13,121 bases of DNA. Origin: Candidatus Parcubacteria bacterium. GTDB lineage: Bacteria; Patescibacteriota; Minisyncoccia; UBA6257; 2-01-FULL-56-20. The notes beneath the pieces are model-generated. The model saw only the letters and a list, made by a program, of their open reading frames with translations, was not told the origin of the DNA and did not search any database. The stretch is taken from positions 1 through 13,121 of the forward strand of contig DAIBYH010000013.1 of the NCBI GenBank assembly GCA_027424065.1. The letters run 5' to 3'. Positions 135-8,835 of this stretch are shown here, piece after piece (position 1 is the first letter of the stretch; the number at the start of each line of letters is the position of its first letter). Made by a program: the position numbers and the translations under genes.

Positions 135-983
135 ATGCGCACGAGACGGATGATTTCATTGCTTCCCTTCTCGTTTTTTATGTTTCTTATTCCGATTTCC
201 GCATTTGCTCAGGCGACGATTTCCGTTTCCATCCCAGGCATGAGCAATGTCTCATCAAGCACACCTCCGGGGGCCTATATCGGGGCATTCTACAACTTTG
301 CCCTCATGATCAGCGGTATTCTGGCCCTGGGAGCCATCGTCTATGGCGGCGTTCTCTATGCCATGTCGGCAGGGAATTCCAGCAAGCAATCGGAGGGAAG
401 AGCCTGGATCACGAGCGCGCTCACGGGATTGCTGCTCCTTGGAGGCGCCTATCTGATCCTCTATACCATCAATCCGAATCTGGTGGAACTTGGCCTGCCG
501 ACACTGCAACAGATCAATTTGCCGACCAGCACCTACGTTTCAGGCTGGGGAAATAGCGGAAGCTGCCAGGCTCCAGCGAGCGGCGCTTGCAGCACCGCGA
601 TGCTCCAAAGCAGCTGTTTCGGGGCAAGTGCCCAGGCGGCCGGCGGCATCTGCAATACGGAGAGCAGCAACAATCCAAACGCCGAAGGCGACGATTGCGG
701 CGGCGGCAATTATGCTTCCATCGGACTTTTCCAGATCAACCTGTCGGCGAATACGATCCAGGACCCGAAAACGGGGCAGACGCTTAATTGTCCGAGTGCG
801 TTCAGTAACCCATACACAGGAAGCAACCCGCATTGCACGATCGTAAATCAGAACCTTTATAACGAATGCGTCGCCGCGGCAAAGAATCCTTCCACCAACA
901 TCCAGGAGGCGTGCGCTCTTTCAAAGCAAGGCACCAACTGGTCGTTGTGGGGCCCGCGTACGCGTCAGGTATGCGGTGTATAA
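135..983 (+). CDS. VirB2-like pilin hairpin fused to a lysozyme-like (VirB1-like) domain
   Basis: 282 residues. Residues 1-25 form a signal peptide with likely cleavage after SAFA. Two hydrophobic segments follow (about 52-74 and 92-112), separated by a polar loop, SAGNSSKQSEGRAW, in the layout of VirB2/TrbC-type T4SS pilins. After a Thr/Ser/Gly linker, residues 143-282 resemble a lysozyme or lytic transglycosylase fold: TESSNNPNA (candidate catalytic Glu176), then SIGLFQINL (195-203), then WSLWG near the C-terminus, as in SLT enzymes. This part has ten cysteines, suggesting an oxidised extracytoplasmic domain. Known: in classical type IV secretion loci, the muramidase VirB1 and pilin VirB2 are separate, adjacent genes. 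Inference: this protein is a membrane-anchored or pilus-linked peptidoglycan cutter. The pilin half is clear; the enzymatic activity is plausible but not shown. The ATG is the only start that keeps a complete signal peptide. Confidence 0.8.
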   Translation: MRTRRMISLLPFSFFMFLIPISAFAQATISVSIPGMSNVSSSTPPGAYIGAFYNFALMISGILALGAIVYGGVLYAMSAGNSSKQSEGRAWITSALTGLLLLGGAYLILYTINPNLVELGLPTLQQINLPTSTYVSGWGNSGSCQAPASGACSTAMLQSSCFGASAQAAGGICNTESSNNPNAEGDDCGGGNYASIGLFQINLSANTIQDPKTGQTLNCPSAFSNPYTGSNPHCTIVNQNLYNECVAAAKNPSTNIQEACALSKQGTNWSLWGPRTRQVCGV

Positions 984-996: not shown

Positions 997-1542
997 ATGA
1001 AGAAGATCATCATTCTCGGCCTGCTGGTGCTCCTCGCCCTCGCTGCGGTATTTTTCTTCGTTTCAAGGCAATCTGGAGCTCCGGGTCTTGGGGGAGTCAC
1101 GGGAACGTTGCCTGCGGCAGTGACCAGCACGCCGGTCGCGCCGGCAACTACATCTACGTCGTCTGCCGCGGGCTTCGTTCCCTCAGTGCCGAGTGGCGGC
1201 AATTTTGTACTTGGGACGGCGCAGGGCAGTGTGACGGTCAATAATTTCTATACCGGCGCGAAGGTCAGCGCGGACGGAACATCGGTATTGGTCGCTGAAA
1301 CGCCAGCATATGTCATCAGCTATTACGCACCCGATAGCAGCTTCAATATTCTTATAGAACAGATGCCCTTTGCGACGGTCCGCGCCGAGGCCGAAAGCGC
1401 GTTTTTGCAGAAATTGGGCATTTCCGAACAGGACGCTTGCAAATTGAAGGTACAGGTCGGTGCTCCGATCGGCGTGGATCCGAGCCATGCGGGGCAGAAT
1501 CTGGGGCTTAGCTTCTGTGCGGCAAGCACCTTTGGACAATAG
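997..1542 (+). CDS. Membrane-anchored protein of unknown function in the pilin cluster
   Basis: 181 residues; family not recognised. Lys-Lys at positions 2-3 followed by a hydrophobic stretch (4-22) gives an uncleaved anchor or signal peptide, so the remainder lies outside the membrane. Residues 26-68 are rich in Ser, Thr, Ala, Pro and Gly, an extended spacer. Residues 70-181 look like a compact beta-rich domain (GSVTVNNFYTGAKV, then VLVAETPAYVISYY) and have two cysteines, C148 and C174, that could pair. It lies between the pilin-lysozyme fusion and the first stand-alone pilin, 13 bases after the former. It could be a minor component or assembly factor of the same surface apparatus, but that rests on position only. 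Confidence 0.75.
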   Translation: MKKIIILGLLVLLALAAVFFFVSRQSGAPGLGGVTGTLPAAVTSTPVAPATTSTSSAAGFVPSVPSGGNFVLGTAQGSVTVNNFYTGAKVSADGTSVLVAETPAYVISYYAPDSSFNILIEQMPFATVRAEAESAFLQKLGISEQDACKLKVQVGAPIGVDPSHAGQNLGLSFCAASTFGQ

Positions 1543-1568: not shown

Positions 1569-1916
1569 ATGATGAGGGCTGCAAAAAAGTGGGGGGGCGC
1601 CGTGATTGCCGCAGGGACGTTCGTTTACGCCTCGGCGGCGTTCGCTGACTCTCTTACGCTCACCAATCCGCTCGGCCAGAATTCCACTTTTCAGACGGTT
1701 TTGGACAATGTTAATGTTTTCCTTTTGGCGATCGCGGCTCCGATCTGCGGGATCATGGTGGTATGGGGAGGCTTCCAGATGATCACCGCGGCTGGAAATC
1801 CGGAAAAGTTTTCCAGCGGCAAAAAAACGCTTTTATATGCGGCGATCGGATTTGCGGTCGTCATTTTCGCGTCGAGCGTCGTTCCGGTCATACAAAGCAT
1901 CTTTGGGCAATCGTAG
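1569..1916 (+). CDS. VirB2/TrbC-like pilin, copy 1
   Basis: 115 residues. A signal peptide ends near SAAFA (residue 26). Two hydrophobic helices (about 48-67 and 88-108) flank the polar turn ITAAGNPEKFSSGKK, which holds the conserved Ala-Ala-Gly-Asn/Asp and positive charges seen in T4SS-type pilins of Patescibacteria. Known: VirB2-type subunits insert as membrane hairpins and can be extracted into a pilus. Its only cysteine (C60) is inside the first helix, unlike copies 2-4, so it lacks their paired cysteines. ATG at 1569 is immediately followed by a second ATG (1572), and either could start translation. The stop is separated by one base from the start of copy 2, so the two are probably translated from one message. 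Confidence 0.82.
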   Translation: MMRAAKKWGGAVIAAGTFVYASAAFADSLTLTNPLGQNSTFQTVLDNVNVFLLAIAAPICGIMVVWGGFQMITAAGNPEKFSSGKKTLLYAAIGFAVVIFASSVVPVIQSIFGQS

Positions 1917-1917
1917 T

Positions 1918-2277
1918 ATGAAAAGGATCTTGTGGATTTCTCCGGGAATCGCTTCCATTATCGCTTCCGCGGCCGCTTTTCCCGTACTCGCCGCGAGCAG
2001 CTATCCCGTCATAACGAACACGGCTGGAATTCGTAGCGAGATTTGCAACGTATTCACTATCATGTTCGAGGTTCTGATCGCCGTTTCGGTCATTATGGTG
2101 CTTTGGGCGGCATACCTGTACGCAACCGCGGGCGACGACACGGAACAGGTCACCCAAGCGCGGCGAGCATTGTTTTACGCGGCGATCGGATTGGTCGTTG
2201 CATTTGCCGCAAAAGGGTTTCCATTTTTGGTCGCGAGCATTTTCCCGAGCGGGACATCGGGCATCCAGGGATGTTGA
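1918..2277 (+). CDS. VirB2/TrbC-like pilin, copy 2
   Basis: 119 residues. The frame is open further upstream to 1837, but the ATG at 1918 is preferred: it directly follows the stop of copy 1 and begins a proper signal peptide (MKRILW, cleavage near VLAA). Two helices (about 45-68 and 86-108) flank the loop ATAGDDTEQVTQARR. A cysteine sits just before helix 1 (C43) and another is the very last residue (C119). Both should be extracytoplasmic after signal cleavage, so they may pair. The DNA for helix 1 and the loop is closely related to copy 3. There is no Shine-Dalgarno sequence; the one-base gap suggests coupling to copy 1. The gene stops with TGA, evidence that UGA is not recoded. Confidence 0.82.
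   Translation: MKRILWISPGIASIIASAAAFPVLAASSYPVITNTAGIRSEICNVFTIMFEVLIAVSVIMVLWAAYLYATAGDDTEQVTQARRALFYAAIGLVVAFAAKGFPFLVASIFPSGTSGIQGC
2062..2150 (+). repeat. Duplicated pilin core, unit A
   Basis: 89 bases match 2472-2560 at 77 positions, with an uninterrupted 28-base identity (2084-2111 against 2494-2521). It encodes helix 1 and the loop of pilin copy 2. The fixed 410-base offset and synonymous-type differences point to tandem gene duplication. Confidence 0.8.
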
Positions 2278-2318: not shown

Positions 2319-2741
2319 ATGAAGAAACATTTATTCCGGGCCGCGGAAATCATCGGAGTTATGTTGCCGATCGCAATTTTTGCGACAAGCGTCGCAAGTG
2401 CGCAGGTGCCGTCGATCATTTCCGACAAAAGCCAGCTCGGATCCGGGCTCCTCTGTCCCATTATCAGCGTTATGTTCGTGATCCTGATCGCCATTTCGGT
2501 CATTATGGTGCTTTGGGCGGCCTATTTGTACGTTACGGCGGGGGACGACACGGAAAAGGTGCATAAAGCAACCAAGACCATTACCTATGCCGCAGTTGCC
2601 ATCGTGGTCGCCTTGATCGCCTACGGCTTTCCGAGTTTGATCGCAAGTATTTTCGGCCAGACCTCCTCCAATCTTTTTCAGTGCAGCGGAGGCGGTGGCG
2701 GCGGGGGAACGCCCGCCGGCAGCGGTTTGATTTCTTCCTAG
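2319..2741 (+). CDS. VirB2/TrbC-like pilin, copy 3, with polyglycine tail
   Basis: 140 residues. A signal peptide probably ends at SVASA (28). Helix 1 (about 49-71), the loop VTAGDDTEKVHKATK and helix 2 (about 88-111) follow the same plan as copy 2, with SVIMVLWAAYLY nearly identical between them. Cysteines C46 (before helix 1) and C122 (after helix 2) match the C43/C119 pair of copy 2. The protein is longer than its paralogs because of a low-complexity tail: Ser, then a run of seven glycines, then TPAGSGLISS. Such a tail would be flexible and exposed outside the membrane. The gene has its own near-leaderless promoter 41 bases after the end of copy 2, so its level can differ from that of copies 1-2. 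Confidence 0.82.
   Translation: MKKHLFRAAEIIGVMLPIAIFATSVASAQVPSIISDKSQLGSGLLCPIISVMFVILIAISVIMVLWAAYLYVTAGDDTEKVHKATKTITYAAVAIVVALIAYGFPSLIASIFGQTSSNLFQCSGGGGGGGTPAGSGLISS
2472..2560 (+). repeat. Duplicated pilin core, unit B
   Basis: Partner of 2062-2150 (77 of 89 bases identical), encoding helix 1 and the loop of pilin copy 3. Confidence 0.8.
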
Positions 2742-2787: not shown

Positions 2788-3165
2788 ATGAAACAGATCA
2801 AGCGCTTTGCTTTCAATTTTATCCCGGTTGCGCTGTTGGCCTTGCCGGTGATCGCTGCCGCACAGGTCGGCGGCGGTTCTCCGGGGTATGCTCCGGTCGC
2901 GCCTGTAACGAGCCTGAATGCGGTTGCCCAGTCGTTGTGCAATATCACGAACTGGCTGTTCTACTTCCTGATCATTCTTGCGGTCATCTTCATCATCCTG
3001 GCGGCCTTCAAGTATCTTACGGCTGCCGGCGATCCGGACAAAGTGAAATCGGCGAGCCACATGCTGTTGTATGCTGTTATCGCCATCATCGTGGGCATCG
3101 TGGCCAAGGCCGTTCCCGGCCTGGTCGGAAGCTTCATGGGAACCGGTACGGCAGTCAGCTGCTAA
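2788..3165 (+). CDS. VirB2/TrbC-like pilin, copy 4
   Basis: 125 residues. A signal peptide ends near IAAAQ (about 25), followed by a Gly/Pro/Val-rich stretch (28-42). Helix 1 (about 54-76), the loop LTAAGDPDKVKSASH and helix 2 (about 93-116) are the pilin hairpin. C51 just before helix 1 and C125, the last residue, repeat the cysteine layout of copies 2 and 3. The sequence is more distant from copies 2 and 3 than they are from each other. The 46-base leader has a purine-rich GAAAGG (2755-2760), too far from the ATG to be a normal ribosome binding site, and no clear -10 box, so it may be read from the copy 3 promoter. A strong terminator follows 22 bases after the stop, closing the cluster. 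Confidence 0.82.
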   Translation: MKQIKRFAFNFIPVALLALPVIAAAQVGGGSPGYAPVAPVTSLNAVAQSLCNITNWLFYFLIILAVIFIILAAFKYLTAAGDPDKVKSASHMLLYAVIAIIVGIVAKAVPGLVGSFMGTGTAVSC

Positions 3166-3283: not shown

Positions 3284-3367
3284 GCCGAGGTGGCGGAATT
3301 GGCAGACGCACAAGGTTTAGGGCCTTGCGGGAGCAATCCCATGGGAGTTCGACCCTCCCCCTCGGCA
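3284..3367 (+). tRNA. tRNA-Leu (anticodon UAG)
   Basis: 84 nt class II tRNA. The acceptor GCCGAGG pairs with CCTCGGC (3360-3366), with discriminator A3367. The anticodon stem CAAGG/CCTTG closes the loop TTTAGGG, giving TAG at 3318-3320. A long variable arm (GGGAGCAATCCC) and T-arm GGGAG-TTCGACC-CTCCC follow. CCA is not encoded; the next bases are CGG. The T-arm and 3' acceptor strand form the first half of a 41-bp direct repeat. Confidence 0.95.
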
Positions 3368-3387
3368 CGGCAGGTCGAACGGGAAGG
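3347..3387 (+). repeat. 41-bp direct repeat, copy 1 (T-loop to trailer of tRNA-Leu)
   Basis: The repeat starts in the T-arm of tRNA-Leu, runs through the acceptor strand and continues 20 bases into the trailer, ending GGGAAGG. It matches 3476-3516 at 40 of 41 positions; the only difference is A3352 against G3481. Within it GTTCGACC (3347-3354) and GGTCGAAC (3373-3380) are perfectly complementary. Confidence 0.9.
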
Positions 3388-3391
3388 GGGT

Positions 3392-3413
3392 CGGGGAAAC
3401 GGGAGTTTCCCCG
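3392..3413 (+). other. Nine-base-pair hairpin with GNRA tetraloop
   Basis: CGGGGAAAC (3392-3400) pairs perfectly with GTTTCCCCG (3405-3413) around GGGA, a GNRA-type loop. No T run follows, so it is not an intrinsic terminator. It lies between the two repeat copies and may be part of a structured trailer RNA or a processing element. Confidence 0.55.
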
Positions 3414-3431
3414 TGTTGGAAGGAATGGGAA

Positions 3432-3496
3432 ACCGAGGGTGTCCCAGGAGCGAGTCATGTTGCATGGCGAGCGACGTTCGGCCCTCCCCCTCGGCA
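3432..3496 (+). pseudogene. Probable degenerate tRNA-Leu remnant
   Basis: CCGAGGG (3433-3439) can pair with CCCTCGG (3488-3494), as in the acceptor stem of the intact tRNA-Leu, and the 3' end through A3496 is nearly identical to it. Upstream of the strict repeat, CATGGCGAG resembles CATGGGAG of the functional gene with small insertions. The T-stem is not preserved (GCGAC where GGGAG is needed) and no anticodon arm can be drawn, so this should not be a working tRNA. A partial duplication followed by decay is the simplest reading; a non-tRNA structured RNA is an alternative. Confidence 0.4.
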
Positions 3497-3516
3497 CGGC
3501 AGGTCGAACGGGAAGG
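3476..3516 (+). repeat. 41-bp direct repeat, copy 2
   Basis: Second copy of 3347-3387, offset 129 bases. The inverted pair GTTCGGCC (3476-3483) and GGTCGAAC (3502-3509) is kept; the single base change converts an A-U pair to a G-U pair, so the hairpin survives. Confidence 0.9.
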
Positions 3517-3553
3517 AGAACCCTTTTCTCTTCGGTGGTCGTAATATTTTTTG

Positions 3554-5414: not shown

Positions 5415-5942
5415 TTAAAATTCCACGAGTGCTTGGCCTGCTTTTCCTGATTGGAACGGATGTTTCAGTTCGCGCATCTCCGTGGCGAGGTCGGCACGGT
5501 CAATGAATGCCTGTGGCGCGCCGCGGCCGGAGAGGATAAGAAGTCGATCTTCAGGAAAGTCCCGGATCGCGGAGAGGACATCGTCCTCGGAAATGAGGCC
5601 GAGCGAAACGGCGACATTCACTTCGTCGAGCACGATCAATTGCCACTTTCCCGATAGTTGTTCCTGAATGAAAGCGTCGAGCGCATGCCGTGCCGCGGCC
5701 CGGTGCGATTCGATGGGTAAGTTATCGCCGAGAATACCGACGAATCCGAGTCCCATTTTCCGCACCTCAAAAATATCGGCAGGAATGCCGTATTTCTTTG
5801 CAAATTCATCCTCCCCGGAGATCCAGGGTCCCTTGATAAACTGGATCATGAGTGCCCCTTTTCCCCGGCCTGCGACGCGGACCATTTGTCCGAGGGAGGC
5901 GGTCGTTTTCCCTTTTCCATTACCGGTGAATACGATTATCAT
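5415..5942 (-). CDS. cobO: Corrinoid (cob(I)alamin) adenosyltransferase, CobA/CobO/BtuR family
   Basis: 175 residues. The family transfers the adenosyl group of ATP to the cobalt of corrinoids, making adenosylcobalamin. The P-loop GNGKGKTT (7-14), the Walker B-like stretch LIVLDEVNVAVSLGLI (102-117), SGRGAP (138-143; usually TGRGAP) and the signature DLATEMRELKHPFQSGKAGQ near the C-terminus are all present. The frame is open upstream to 6092, but that extension would overlap tRNA-Ile and adds nothing family-like; the ATG at 5940-5942 starts exactly where the family does (MIIVFTGNGKGKTT). No cobalamin synthesis, transport or B12-dependent gene is in the window, so the cofactor's source and user are unknown. 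The symbol follows the family; cobA or btuR would fit equally. Confidence 0.93.
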   Translation of the reverse strand: MIIVFTGNGKGKTTASLGQMVRVAGRGKGALMIQFIKGPWISGEDEFAKKYGIPADIFEVRKMGLGFVGILGDNLPIESHRAAARHALDAFIQEQLSGKWQLIVLDEVNVAVSLGLISEDDVLSAIRDFPEDRLLILSGRGAPQAFIDRADLATEMRELKHPFQSGKAGQALVEF

Positions 5943-5965
5943 GGTGTTTTTCAATCTGTCACTCC

Positions 5966-5974
5966 AGTATAACA
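5966..5974 (-). promoter_or_regulatory. Extended -10 promoter for the adenosyltransferase gene
   Basis: On the minus strand TGT-TATACT has the extended -10 form and ends 23 bases before the ATG at 5942, giving a short leader of roughly 16 bases. No consensus -35 box is visible 17 bases upstream. Confidence 0.45.
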
Positions 5975-6053
5975 GAACGCCGGCGGTCTTGCCGGAACTG
6001 GAAAGCTGAAGAGAGTTACAGTAGAATGGGCGGTAAGAGCAAGGATCCCTTTT

Positions 6054-6125
6054 GGGCGTGTAGCTCAGCGGTAGAGCAACCGTCTTATACACGGTCGGTC
6101 GCTGGTTCGAATCCAGCCGCGCCCA
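6054..6125 (+). tRNA. tRNA-Ile (anticodon UAU), rare in bacteria
   Basis: 72 nt with a full cloverleaf. Acceptor GGGCGTG pairs with CGCGCCC (6118-6124), discriminator A6125. The D-arm is GCTC/GAGC. The anticodon stem ACCGT/ACGGT holds the loop CTTATAC, giving anticodon TAT at 6086-6088 with U33 present. The T-arm is GCTGG/CCAGC around TTCGAAT. UAU reads AUA directly; most bacteria instead use a CAU tRNA with lysidine at position 34. CCA is not encoded. The gene's 3' end touches the stop codon of the minus-strand gene at 6126. Confidence 0.9.
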
Positions 6126-6725
6126 CTATCTTTTTGATTCCAGTGCGTCAAAACGGGTCATGGCCTCCTGGGCTTGATCGTTGAAATTGTTGATGGCGTT
6201 CACGTCCATGTTGATCTGATCGACGATGGACGTTACTTCGCCCGGCTTTATTGCAGTCCCGGTGAAGCGCCCCTGGAGCGTCACGAGGAGATGGCTTAGG
6301 TCGTTGCTATAGGTGATCAGTTCGCTTACGAGAGCAAGGCGGCTCGAGATCGCATCGAGGGCCGCTTGGCGCGCTTCGAGCGATGAAATGTCCGGCAATG
6401 ACCTTGCCATTGCCTCTATTTGCGACGAAAGCGAAAGCGCCTGATCATGGAGATCCTGATTTTTCGTGATGATGTTCGTGGTCAAAGAGAGCGCTGCGGC
6501 ATAATTGCCGGACCGATCCAGGTCGTTCACGGTTGTGAGATCATGGGTCGATTGATCAGAGAGCCCCACGATGCTTTGTGCAATGAGCGCTCCTTGCACG
6601 CGCGCCTGCGTGAATTCCTGCGGAACGCCGGCGCTTCTGCTTGAAAACCAGGCGGTTCCGGCGCCGACGAGAATAAAGGCGAGAAAGACCGAGACGATCT
6701 TGGTTTTTCGCGAGAGGGTCGGCAT
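6126..6725 (-). CDS. Membrane-anchored helical protein of unknown function
   Basis: 199 residues; family not recognised. RKTK at 6-9 precedes a single membrane segment (about 9-27), then about 170 residues that look almost wholly alpha-helical, with few prolines and no cysteines. Several stretches (for example 60-120 and 160-195) have regular hydrophobic spacing that could form a coiled-coil or helical bundle. The topology suggests an N-terminal anchor with the helical part outside the membrane. The stop codon TAG (6128-6126) directly abuts the 3' end of the convergent tRNA-Ile gene, and no terminator hairpin exists between them. The start ATG is the only one that includes the positive residues before the membrane segment. 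The upstream 108 bases are shared with the divergent tRNA-Gly promoter. Confidence 0.78.
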   Translation of the reverse strand: MPTLSRKTKIVSVFLAFILVGAGTAWFSSRSAGVPQEFTQARVQGALIAQSIVGLSDQSTHDLTTVNDLDRSGNYAAALSLTTNIITKNQDLHDQALSLSSQIEAMARSLPDISSLEARQAALDAISSRLALVSELITYSNDLSHLLVTLQGRFTGTAIKPGEVTSIVDQINMDVNAINNFNDQAQEAMTRFDALESKR

Positions 6726-6780
6726 CGAAATGGTGGATTATTTTTACCAAAAATCGGGACAGAGGACAAATCGGCAGGTT

Positions 6781-6809
6781 TTGATTTAATCCCCCTTTAT
6801 CTATATACT
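6781..6809 (+). promoter_or_regulatory. Sigma70-type promoter for tRNA-Gly
   Basis: TTGATT (6781-6786) and TATACT (6804-6809) are separated by exactly 17 bases and lie 24 bases before the mature tRNA-Gly 5' end. The surrounding sequence is AT-rich compared with the genes. Confidence 0.7.
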
Positions 6810-6833
6810 AAAACAATCGTCGTTTGGTTTCAC

Positions 6834-6904
6834 GCGGGTATGGTATAACGGTATTATGTCACCCTTCCAAGGTGAAGACGCGGGTCCGACTCCCGCTACC
6901 CGCT
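6834..6904 (+). tRNA. tRNA-Gly (anticodon UCC) with an atypical T-loop
   Basis: 71 nt. Acceptor GCGGGTA pairs with TACCCGC (6897-6903), discriminator T6904, as is usual for bacterial tRNA-Gly. The anticodon stem TCACC/GGTGA holds CTTCCAA, anticodon TCC at 6866-6868. The T-stem GCGGG/CCCGC is perfect, but the loop is TCCGACT, so position 55 (C6886) is C where U, normally made pseudouridine, is nearly invariant. CCA is not encoded. The D-arm is weak, as often seen in tRNA-Gly(UCC). Confidence 0.93.
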
Positions 6905-6936
6905 CACTTCTTCGCCCCTTGCGGGGCTACGAAGTG
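6905..6936 (+). other. Imperfect hairpin directly after tRNA-Gly
   Basis: CACTTC (6905-6910) pairs with GAAGTG (6931-6936), and inside it CCCC pairs with GGGG around TTGC, with mismatches between. It begins right after the discriminator base. No T run follows, so it may be a processing or attenuating element rather than an intrinsic terminator. Confidence 0.45.
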
Positions 6937-6956
6937 CATGCGCTCTTCAGGCTTGC

Positions 6957-6976
6957 ATTTCGTCAAATGACGAAAT
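6957..6976. other. Short hairpin just past the tyrS stop codon
   Basis: ATTTCGTC (6957-6964) pairs with GACGAAAT (6969-6976) around AAAT. It lies 4 bases past the tyrS stop on the minus strand and also downstream of tRNA-Gly on the plus strand. Neither side has a clear T tract, so a terminator or transcript-end stabiliser role is only possible. Confidence 0.4.
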
Positions 6977-6980
6977 CTTC

Positions 6981-8153
6981 TTACGTGCGGAAGAAGTTCT
7001 TTTTCCCGACACGAAGGACGGCGTTCGACTTAATGGCGAGCATGGCTTGCGGATCTTTAATGACAGTATTGTCATATTCAAAGCCGCCCTGCTCTATGAG
7101 TCGTCGCGCTTCGCTTTTGCTTTTGAAAAGCCCGGTTTCCATGGAGAGGTCCATTGCCGCGAGATTCTTTGCGGCAATGCGAAGCGCCGGAATGTTTTCA
7201 GGGATCTCTTTTCTGGAGAATATCTTTTCAAAATTTTCCTGCGCAGCGTTCGCGGCATGCACGCTGTGATATTTTTTGACGATCTCAAAACCAAGCCGTT
7301 CCTTTAATTCCTTCGGGGGCAATGATCCCGCAAGCCGGTCGACGACGTCGGGCTCGAGCTCGGTGCAGAGAAGGAAATATTTTTTAACCAGGCCGTCGGG
7401 AATGGACATGATCTTCCCGAACATGCTTTCGGGGGATTCACTGAGGCCGATATAGTTCCCGATGCTCTTGCTCATCTTCTTCACTCCGTCGAGACCCTCA
7501 AGGATAGGGACCGTCATGACGTCCTGCTCCTTCATGCCGAAATGGCGCTGGATGCGCCTGCCCATAAGAAGATTAAATGTTTGATCGGTGCCGCCAAGCT
7601 CTACGTCGGCTTTGATCTTCACGGAATCATAACCCTGAAAGAGGGGATAAAGGAGCTCCAGGAAGGTGATGTCCTGGTCTGCGTCGATGCGCTTTTTAAA
7701 ATCGGCCCTGCGAAGAACTTGCTGAAACGTTCCTGCCATGGCGAGCTGCACAAATTGCTCGATGCCCTCCTTGGCGAACCAGGAGCTGTTGTAAGCAACC
7801 TCCGTTTTTTTAAGATTCAGTATCTTTCCGGCATGAGAAAGATATTCCCCCATGTTTTTTTTGATCTCTTTCTCGATCAGCGGTTTTCGGGTTTCCGATC
7901 GTCCGCTCGGATCCCCGATGCGCGCCGTAAAATCACCGATGAGCAGGACGACCTTATGGCCCAGGTCCTGGAACTCTTTCAGTTTGTTCAGAGCGACGGC
8001 GTGGCCCAGATGCAGGTCGGGGGAGGTCGGGTCGATACCGAACTTTATGCGCAGTTTTTTGCCGGAGCGGAGCGCGTGCTCAAGATGATCTTTTTCGATG
8101 ACCTCTTCCACGTTGCGTGAAAGGAGGGATCGTATCTTTTCTTCCGGAATCAT
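6981..8153 (-). CDS. tyrS: Tyrosyl-tRNA synthetase
   Basis: 390 residues, class I aminoacyl-tRNA synthetase that charges tRNA-Tyr with tyrosine. The Rossmann catalytic domain has the HIGH-type motif HLGH (48-51) in KFGIDPTSPDLHLGH, the tyrosine-binding region GGTDQTFNLLMG (187-198) and KMSKS (226-230). A C-terminal S4-like RNA-binding domain occupies about 335-390 (FKSKSEARRLIEQGGF). The KFGIDPTSPDLHLGH form places it with the TyrZ-like long branch of bacterial TyrRS. It is complete. A terminator separates it from clpP, so it is a separate unit; a loose TAGGAT (8166-8161) lies 7 bases before the ATG, again suggesting a near-leaderless message. Confidence 0.97.
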   Translation of the reverse strand: MIPEEKIRSLLSRNVEEVIEKDHLEHALRSGKKLRIKFGIDPTSPDLHLGHAVALNKLKEFQDLGHKVVLLIGDFTARIGDPSGRSETRKPLIEKEIKKNMGEYLSHAGKILNLKKTEVAYNSSWFAKEGIEQFVQLAMAGTFQQVLRRADFKKRIDADQDITFLELLYPLFQGYDSVKIKADVELGGTDQTFNLLMGRRIQRHFGMKEQDVMTVPILEGLDGVKKMSKSIGNYIGLSESPESMFGKIMSIPDGLVKKYFLLCTELEPDVVDRLAGSLPPKELKERLGFEIVKKYHSVHAANAAQENFEKIFSRKEIPENIPALRIAAKNLAAMDLSMETGLFKSKSEARRLIEQGGFEYDNTVIKDPQAMLAIKSNAVLRVGKKNFFRT

Positions 8154-8160
8154 AGCCTGT

Positions 8161-8166
8161 ATCCTA
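8161..8166 (-). promoter_or_regulatory. Weak candidate -10 box for tyrS
   Basis: On the minus strand TAGGAT ends 7 bases before the tyrS ATG. It matches the -10 consensus at four of six positions; it is listed because it repeats the spacing seen at other starts here. Confidence 0.3.
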
Positions 8167-8184
8167 ACATGAAAACGGAGACCT

Positions 8185-8211
8185 AAAAAGACCCCTGCGA
8201 GGGGTCTTTTT
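8185..8211 (-). terminator. Rho-independent terminator after clpP
   Basis: GACCCC and GGGGTC flank a five-base loop, with five A on one side and five T on the other, making an 11-bp stem with a T tail on either strand. It lies 18 bases past the clpP stop on the minus strand and ends the presumed nusA-hppA-clpP unit just before the tyrS promoter region. Confidence 0.9.
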
Positions 8212-8229
8212 AATGCGGTGAGAGCCGTT

Positions 8230-8835
<606 letters not shown>

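Follow-up and report, generated by a model that had tools for sequence, protein, structure and literature searches.

Among described type IV secretion systems (T4SS), the nearest counterparts of the locus analysed here are T4SS-associated hydrolases of the VirB1/PrgK/TraG type and the PF18895 pilins of Patescibacteria. The former, as presented in the main text of a 2025 survey of T4SS in 3,035 Patescibacteria genomes (PMC12102498), are non-pilins with a lysozyme/SLT-type domain and comprise VirB1 and larger two-domain versions of monoderms; the latter, in the same source, have a signal peptide and a two-helix hairpin and are encoded by tandem genes. Homologues of VirB1 are also recorded in the main text of that survey, M23 or LysM domains being present in some of them, and in most classes, Paceibacteria excepted, their association with VirB4 is not strong. 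It also cites lysozyme and peptidase genes of S. epibionticum ML1 that lie downstream of virB4 and are essential. Because VirB1 is missing from most genomes that have VirB2, the pilus appears, on its account, to do without VirB1, and other glycosidases may substitute; fusions of a pilin to an enzyme are not described in its main text, as distinct from its supplements. Nor did titles and the openings of abstracts, a scope that leaves most subscription papers and bioRxiv preprints outside, yield any report of a T4SS pilin fused to a wall hydrolase. Passages in PMC10633639 and PMC12857230 describe the T4SS pilins of S. epibionticum as essential, the former with respect to the epibiotic growth of this Patescibacterium, which has been manipulated genetically, and another CPR bacterium is described in part of PMC8080830 as secreting peptidoglycan hydrolases.

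What is new here, as read from sequence, is a T4SS pilin bearing a wall-hydrolase-like domain, the type of which varies at one locus, and with a hairpin that has a near-identical twin on the virB4 side in most relatives compared. It differs from the VirB1/PrgK/TraG-type hydrolases in that the domain is joined to a pilin hairpin and its type at one locus varies by genome, and from the PF18895 pilin arrays in its ~140 additional residues of lysozyme-like domain and in the virB4-side twin that its hairpin has in relatives. SLT_3 proteins (PF18896) share the lysozyme-like domain, but a hairpin model matched none of 13 such proteins from elsewhere in the phylum that served as a control (E ≤ 10).

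Architecture of P0001 and its lysozyme-like tail

The window, that is, the whole stretch of 13,121 nucleotides that was analysed, is one entire contig of a genome (G000) of 532,786 bases in 83 contigs that is 85% complete. A 48-residue match to a contig of the uncultured Parcubacteria group gave the sole named relative. P0001, the product of its ORF at 135–983, is read in an uninterrupted frame from an ATG start, and we use the term armed pilin for a protein that, like P0001, combines the hairpin with an enzyme-like tail (Table 1). Two hydrophobic segments, at residues ~49–77 and ~90–113, enclose K84, E87 and R89, and each of the 10 Cys lies at residue 144 or beyond. The T4SS_pilin family PF18895 was matched with E 1.1e-5 and 25.9 bits against a cut-off of 26.6 in the Pfam search, and with 28.8 bits, above the cut-off, in the genome-wide search; SLT_3 (PF18896) was matched with E 4.2e-6 and 27.6 bits against a cut-off of 27. 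In all, 66 of 73 proteins matched PF18895 and 3 of 73 matched PF04956 (E ≤ 0.01). P0001 is thus a predicted pilin by its PF18895 match, its signal peptide (by eye) and its pair of hydrophobic helices, which enclose a polar loop. PF18895 and PF18896 are consecutive accessions, and Pfam curators may have met the combination of pilin and SLT_3 before.

Table 1. Features of the window around P0001 (positions in the window).
Feature	Position	Strand	Basis
Preceding gene, last residues	2..106	+	Frame read; T4SS pilin here in relatives, identity by synteny only
Armed pilin P0001, 282 aa (signal peptide, T4SS pilin hairpin, lysozyme-like domain)	135..983	+	ORF translation, PF18895, PF18896
Signal peptide, residues 1–26	135..212	+	Hydrophobic N-terminus with R2, R4, R5; boundary by eye
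Pilin hairpin, residues 45–113	267..473	+	PF18895 48–110; modelled helices 45–77, 82–112
Linker, residues 114–143	474..563	+	Between the two Pfam matches; mostly low-confidence coil (model)
Lysozyme-like (SLT_3) domain, residues 144–282	564..980	+	PF18896 164–272; holds 10/10 Cys
E176 codon, predicted catalytic Glu	660..662	+	13/13 picked tails, 16/17 class matches; profile chain to lysozyme E-S Glu
GLFQIN, residues 197–202	723..740	+	G, L, Q, I, N invariant 13/13
ORF2, 181 aa, one N-terminal TM, remainder probably exported	997..1542	+	Matches in 25/61 genomes, own included
T4SS pilin	1569..1916	+	PF18895 E 1.5e-15, TrbC/VirB2 5.9e-8
T4SS pilin	1918..2277	+	PF18895 E 3.2e-10
T4SS pilin	2319..2741	+	PF18895 E 6.4e-7
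T4SS pilin	2788..3165	+	PF18895 E 1.3e-8

A single-sequence structure model of P0001 had pLDDT values mostly of 77–86 in the hairpin helices and mostly of 23–49 in the tail. In a Foldseek search of the PDB, the hairpin model retrieved nothing at E ≤ 0.001, and a T4SS pilin was absent among the 50 of 155 matches listed. P0001 itself had no match among PDB sequences or among plasmids and phages and no family in NCBIfam, five proteins searched had no family in PHROGs, and a search of viral contigs with profile A1 gave 31 pattern-matching stretches with none confirmed.

To describe the tail, we denote lysozyme-like tails as LYS, their tail profile as A3, and a set of nine SLT_3-type proteins as A6. 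Twelve further proteins with a LYS tail, chosen by eye, are 31–58% identical, and E176, S177, D186, S195, G197, L198, Q200, I201 and N202 are invariant in all 13 tails, window included; as the rows of A1/A3, and equally those of A4 and A5 described below, were picked by eye from translated matches, invariance inside them is partly selected. Because the choice of the 13 rows favoured the motif, a class-wide search with A3 was used as an independent check. In 16 of its 17 matches outside G000, an E-S motif precedes a GLFQIN-like segment, variants of which include GLYQIN, GLFQVN, GLMQIN, GLWQIN and GMFQI; the exception is L131 (G410), in which SIGLFQIN is present and the equivalent Glu is missing. 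Searched alone, 12 of the 13 tails matched SLT_3 and 5 of the 13 Transglycosylase SLT at E ≤ 1, with a best SLT E-value of 3.1e-4. In hhalign, A3 aligned with A6 (96.6%, E 5e-10), and in the PDB A6 matched lysozymes (best E 4.6e-8) and, with E 5e-5, the lytic transglycosylase MltE, the ES-motif Glu being aligned. Lysozyme was not matched when A3 was compared directly with PDB sequences, which returned one irrelevant match. The tail of P0001 is likely to belong to the lysozyme superfamily, and profile and motif together point to the VirB1-type feature of a lysozyme/SLT-superfamily domain with a predicted catalytic Glu.

These data agree with what the earlier note had read from the window. The signal peptide, the two-helix hairpin with its polar loop and the Cys-rich domain accord with the Pfam matches, hydrophobic segments and Cys positions, and assignment of the hairpin to the T4SS pilin family is borne out by the PF18895 match. 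The conservation expected of E176 and GLFQIN holds in the picked tails and, save for L131, in the independent class matches. The central claim, of a VirB2-like hairpin and a VirB1-like wall-cutting domain in a single polypeptide, is supported by both Pfam profiles, by this conservation and by the further fusions of hairpins to hydrolase-like domains described next.

The gyrA-side locus and its alternative tails

P0001 belongs to a locus that was examined in 14 relatives of the family (L055–L067 and L070), with the order, within contig reach, of gyrA, a solute-binding protein gene, a pilin gene, the hairpin-plus-tail gene, ORF2 and further pilin genes; the identity of gyrA and SBP_bac_1 comes from Pfam at one locus, and similarity located them at others. 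There is no ORF2 match in G299 (L067), L058 and L059 stop before ORF2, L061 starts at the hairpin and L065 at the solute-binding gene. The four array pilins of the window are 115–140 aa long and have no enzyme domain.

Two observations go beyond the earlier note: the tail type varies at this one locus, and in relatives the hairpin has a twin close to virB4. At the locus, the tail is LYS in 9 of the 14 cases (G311, G291, G320, G297, G318, G321, G303, G309 and G307) and M15-like, our term for the Hedgehog/DD-peptidase-like tails of groups A4 (nine rows) and A5 (five rows), in the other 5, being of A4 type in G300 and G314 and of A5 type in G306, G316 and G299. Both kinds occur inside single genera: in g253, the tail at the locus is LYS in G291, G311, G318, G320 and G321 and A5 in G316, and in g259 it is LYS in G297 and A4 in G314. 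A further genome of g253, G596, gave a single match, with an A4-like tail. ORF2 is homologous next to either tail type and is a frequent partner of armed pilins, beyond the family too, in G264 and G191; Pfam and NCBIfam gave nothing convincing for it, and PHROGs had no family. In G264, from another family of the class, positions 5650–8467 (L072) hold a hairpin-LYS gene and ORF2, followed by another hairpin, whose tail is of A5 type.

Matches to P0001 were present in 57 of the 61 genomes, own included (E ≤ 0.001), many of them covering the hairpin only; the stronger ones were translated for tail typing, the weaker second matches being mostly left out. The kinds of tail found on hairpins were LYS, A4, A5, SLT plus GDSL, M23, canonical SLT, Cys-rich, coiled-coil-like and other. 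A4 and A5 both carry the motif H..G..-D with a His further along, the His, Asp and His columns being invariant in 9/9 and 5/5 rows that were picked by eye for the motif; in a class-wide A4 search, H..G..D occurred in 23 of 24 matches, with the later His also present by pattern in 18 of the 24. The A4 profile matched Sonic hedgehog chains in the PDB (best E 3.2e-6) in an alignment that covers T-E and H..G..-D, and one A4 protein (L051) matched the Pfam Hedgehog signal domain with E 0.056. Hedgehog and DD-peptidases have a fold in common. No PDB match was obtained with the A5 profile, and the Pfam M15 family was absent at E ≤ 0.1 from the eight alternative-tail proteins scanned; the label M15-like was therefore given to A4 because of the Hedgehog match and to A5 because of motif and context. 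Among the remaining kinds, L022 (G099) has, in one protein, a hairpin followed by SLT (E 5.8e-7) and GDSL/SGNH-like (E 9.2e-7, below the Pfam cut-off) domains, L111 joins a hairpin to M23 (E 3.5e-17), and L161 (G337) has a canonical SLT domain (E 1.1e-20) in the same ORF as a hairpin (E 4e-5, slightly below cut-off).

The tail-only profiles matched 18 (A3, own included) and 24 (A4) of 285 class genomes, most of the sampled genomes having neither an A3 nor an A4 tail. Where such tails do occur, they are mostly fused to the hairpin: an in-frame hairpin was found in 14 of the 17 A3 matches outside G000 and in 23 of the 24 A4 matches. Without the genomes that had supplied rows to the query, the counts were 13/16 for A3 (G264 removed) and 20/21 for A4 (G302, G332 and G341 removed); hairpins of these four genomes are among the 68 on which the hairpin model was built. 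The hairpin-less exceptions were G403, G348 and G418 for A3 and, for A4, G444, where the 5' end of the frame is truncated.

Twin hairpins near virB4

With PF19044 (TraG P-loop) taken as a marker of VirB4-type ATPases, matches were obtained in 55 of the 61 genomes, G000 counted (21/25 plus 34/36). In G000 itself, 85% complete, there was no PF19044 match and one hairpin copy was found, without a second, so that the pairing is visible in relatives only. There, a twin hairpin gene lies ~2 kb from the VirB4-type gene, usually with a different tail. In G286, a congener of the window genome, the contig that bears PF19044 ends within a hairpin.

Hairpin genes were classed as virB4-linked if their start lay ≤5 kb from a PF19044 match and as ORF2-linked if it lay ≤3 kb from ORF2, which divided the 70 genes tabulated into 36 virB4-linked, 20 ORF2-linked and 14 linked to neither. 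LYS or M15-like tails were present in 18 of the 20 ORF2-linked genes (10 LYS, 8 M15-like) versus 3 of the 36 virB4-linked ones (G296, G332, G341), with a Fisher p of 1e-9 that serves as a guide only, related genomes being non-independent. Without one near-duplicate contig (L102/L103, two contigs of G296 with 99.7% identity, both inside the 20) and two virB4-linked genes cut by a contig end ahead of any tail (L084, L049), the counts became 17/19 versus 3/34 (p 5e-9). The tail motif script gave L105 and L107 as "other"; by eye, L105 was put in A4 and L107 taken as enzyme-less. L166 (G292), near ORF2 and with an A5-like tail, is outside the 20, and L012, L014 and L022 are outside the 70. G296 carries an A4 tail on its virB4-linked copy and LYS on its ORF2-linked ones, and the 14 genes linked to neither marker include 2 LYS, 2 M15-like and 1 M23 tail. 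Tails of virB4-linked proteins are not uniformly short, as these proteins reach several hundred residues in some genomes. Three virB4-linked proteins of genus g256 (L047, L087 and L094 of G317, G294 and G312) have tails that, by eye, are long, charged and coiled-coil-like, Cys being rare or absent in them. The armed pilin is thus tied genetically to T4SS genes by its position in a pilin array and, in relatives, by a twin hairpin at most 5 kb from a match to PF19044.

Between copies of the hairpin core in the same genome, compared over up to 74 codons (47–68 only in G287, G292 and G319), DNA identity was 92.8–100% for 11 of 15 genomes and 70–76% for the other four (G314, G293, G321 and G318); pairs from different genomes (n = 2,537) reached 75.2% at best, with a median of 50.9%. 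At the protein level, the own-genome partner was the nearest relative for 30 of 30 copies in the 15 genomes. By the distance rule, only 11 genomes have one ORF2-linked and one virB4-linked copy, near-identical in 8 and with 71–76% DNA identity in the other three (G293, G314 and G321). Outside the hairpin, the tails gave low raw alignment scores (22–74). A hairpin tree, built on few columns and with many unresolved forks, grouped copies by genome and required 25 tail changes versus 24.2 when tails were shuffled. Over the 15 pairs we counted 191 synonymous differences (799 sites) and 88 nonsynonymous ones (2,378 sites); G302, G306, G307 and G309 together have 36 synonymous and 2 nonsynonymous differences, and the G311 pair 9.3 and 6.7. 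In G309, both copies are present in a single-contig assembly. Since synteny of the armed locus is kept from genome to genome, twin identity is most simply explained by repeated gene conversion, repeated recent duplication being the alternative.

Draft contigs of G292, G319, G303 and G286 end inside the hairpin (L045, L084, L049, L085, L099, L163, L164, L166, L167, L054), as expected of near-identical repeat DNA, and short-read assemblies may lose or truncate hairpin genes.

Predicted role and competing explanations

We consider it likely that P0001 is an armed pilin of a Patescibacteria T4SS, with a hairpin that in relatives recurs in the virB4-linked pilin, and that it does, as predicted from its domains, the job of VirB1. 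The strongest argument is that lysozyme-like and peptidase-like domains occupy one and the same place, which points to peptidoglycan cutting as the task; the near-identity of the hairpins connects this task with the pilin linked to virB4, and the two together lead us to read P0001 as a VirB1 function inside a VirB2-type subunit. The protein would be exported, with its hairpin in the membrane, the short polar loop on the inner side and the C-terminus on the outer side, an orientation suggested by the signal peptide, the two TM helices with their short loop and the Cys-rich tail, and by the topology of VirB2-type pilins. The Cys-rich lysozyme-like domain, probably held by disulfides, would then be turned toward the cell wall. 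Plain and armed pilins would use one assembly platform or filament, and the armed pilin would cut the glycan strands of peptidoglycan where the machine crosses the wall, in VirB1's stead; in some relatives, an M15-like, peptidase-like domain takes that position. Stand-alone cutters are few by the single profile PF01464, which matches 12 of the 61 genomes. Armed pilins may thus explain how a secretion machine crosses the wall without a separate cutter. Should the cutter sit inside pilins, the conclusion that VirB1 is dispensable would change for the lineages concerned, and searches for stand-alone VirB1 would undercount.

A bolder version is a two-subunit pilus, in which hairpins kept alike by conversion and selection co-polymerise into a filament that displays wall-cutting domains on its surface and would be a drill through a cell wall, the host wall included, with the cutter swapped according to the wall. 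Co-assembly of plain and armed pilins in one filament is plausible, and the near-identity of the twins may equally stem from gene conversion at the DNA level without co-assembly; we regard the drill as a whole as possible but doubtful. If the cutter does reside in pilins, plain and armed pilins would form a concrete two-subunit system open to experiment, the choice between own wall and host wall included.

In polymorphic toxin systems, C-terminal domains vary behind a constant N-terminal module, and armed pilins resemble them in having a constant N-terminus and variable tails. An anti-host weapon in the style of such effectors, with a constant delivery module and varied lytic domains directed against the wall of a host or prey, would account for the scatter of tail types over the hairpin tree, within the limits of its forks, and for the differing tails inside one genus, and it would suit the epibiotic life that passages in PMC10633639 describe for Saccharibacteria, a different group of Patescibacteria. 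Against it, ORF2 is homologous under either tail, and locus and partners are fixed. With this homology across tail types, ORF2 does not stand out as an immunity gene for one particular cargo, and a polymorphic toxin with ORF2 as its immunity gene was rejected on the ground that ORF2 is independent of tail type. Armed pilins differ from polymorphic toxins also in that no cargo-specific partner was seen in the loci compared and that their assignable tails resemble wall hydrolases or an esterase, and we judge the weapon unlikely.

Rather less probable still is a membrane-tethered autolysin, in which the hairpin is a mere anchor and the enzyme serves general growth or division of the wall with no part in a T4SS. 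A two-helix hairpin would be enough as an anchor, virB4 was not found in the genome of the window, and on shared contigs the gyrA-side gene lies at least ~30 kb from the VirB4-type match (G291, G311, G307, G299 and G287). The armed gene, however, sits inside a pilin array, and its hairpin is near-identical to the virB4-linked one in most genomes compared, versus 20–30% identity with the array pilins in the window and in G291, where the two were compared.

We think it very improbable that the tail is a catalytically dead, wall-binding relative of lysozyme that anchors the pilin to peptidoglycan. C-type lysozymes use the catalytic pair Glu35/Asp52 and have the Asp directly before GIFQIN, where P0001 has Ser195-Ile196 before GLFQIN, with Ser195, two places ahead of the motif, near the place of that Asp; the Glu-less L131 would also fit a dead domain. 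Yet the Glu is kept in 13/13 and 16/17 tails, single-Glu lytic transglycosylases exist, and hhalign pairs the invariant D186 with an Asp of A6, which makes D186 a candidate for a second acidic catalytic residue that may be present; P0001 is accordingly not classed here as a C-type lysozyme. The invariant His, Asp and His columns of the A4 and A5 tails likewise speak against loss of activity. Finally, an assembly or binning artefact that fused two genes, conceivable as a misjoin at a repeat since draft contigs of relatives end within the hairpin, has a negligible chance of being correct and was rejected, the fusion recurring with conserved neighbours in many genomes, among them the single-contig G309 with both copies.

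Downstream of the pilin array, window positions 3284–3544 contain a tRNA-Leu by ARAGORN, not recovered by Rfam at gathering, that overlaps a stretch with RPSPSARQVEREG; RPSPSARQVEREG occurs twice in one frame of this segment, which suggests a direct DNA repeat. Further along, positions 5415–6092 encode an ATP:corrinoid adenosyltransferase (PF02572, E 1.7e-47) in this small genome.
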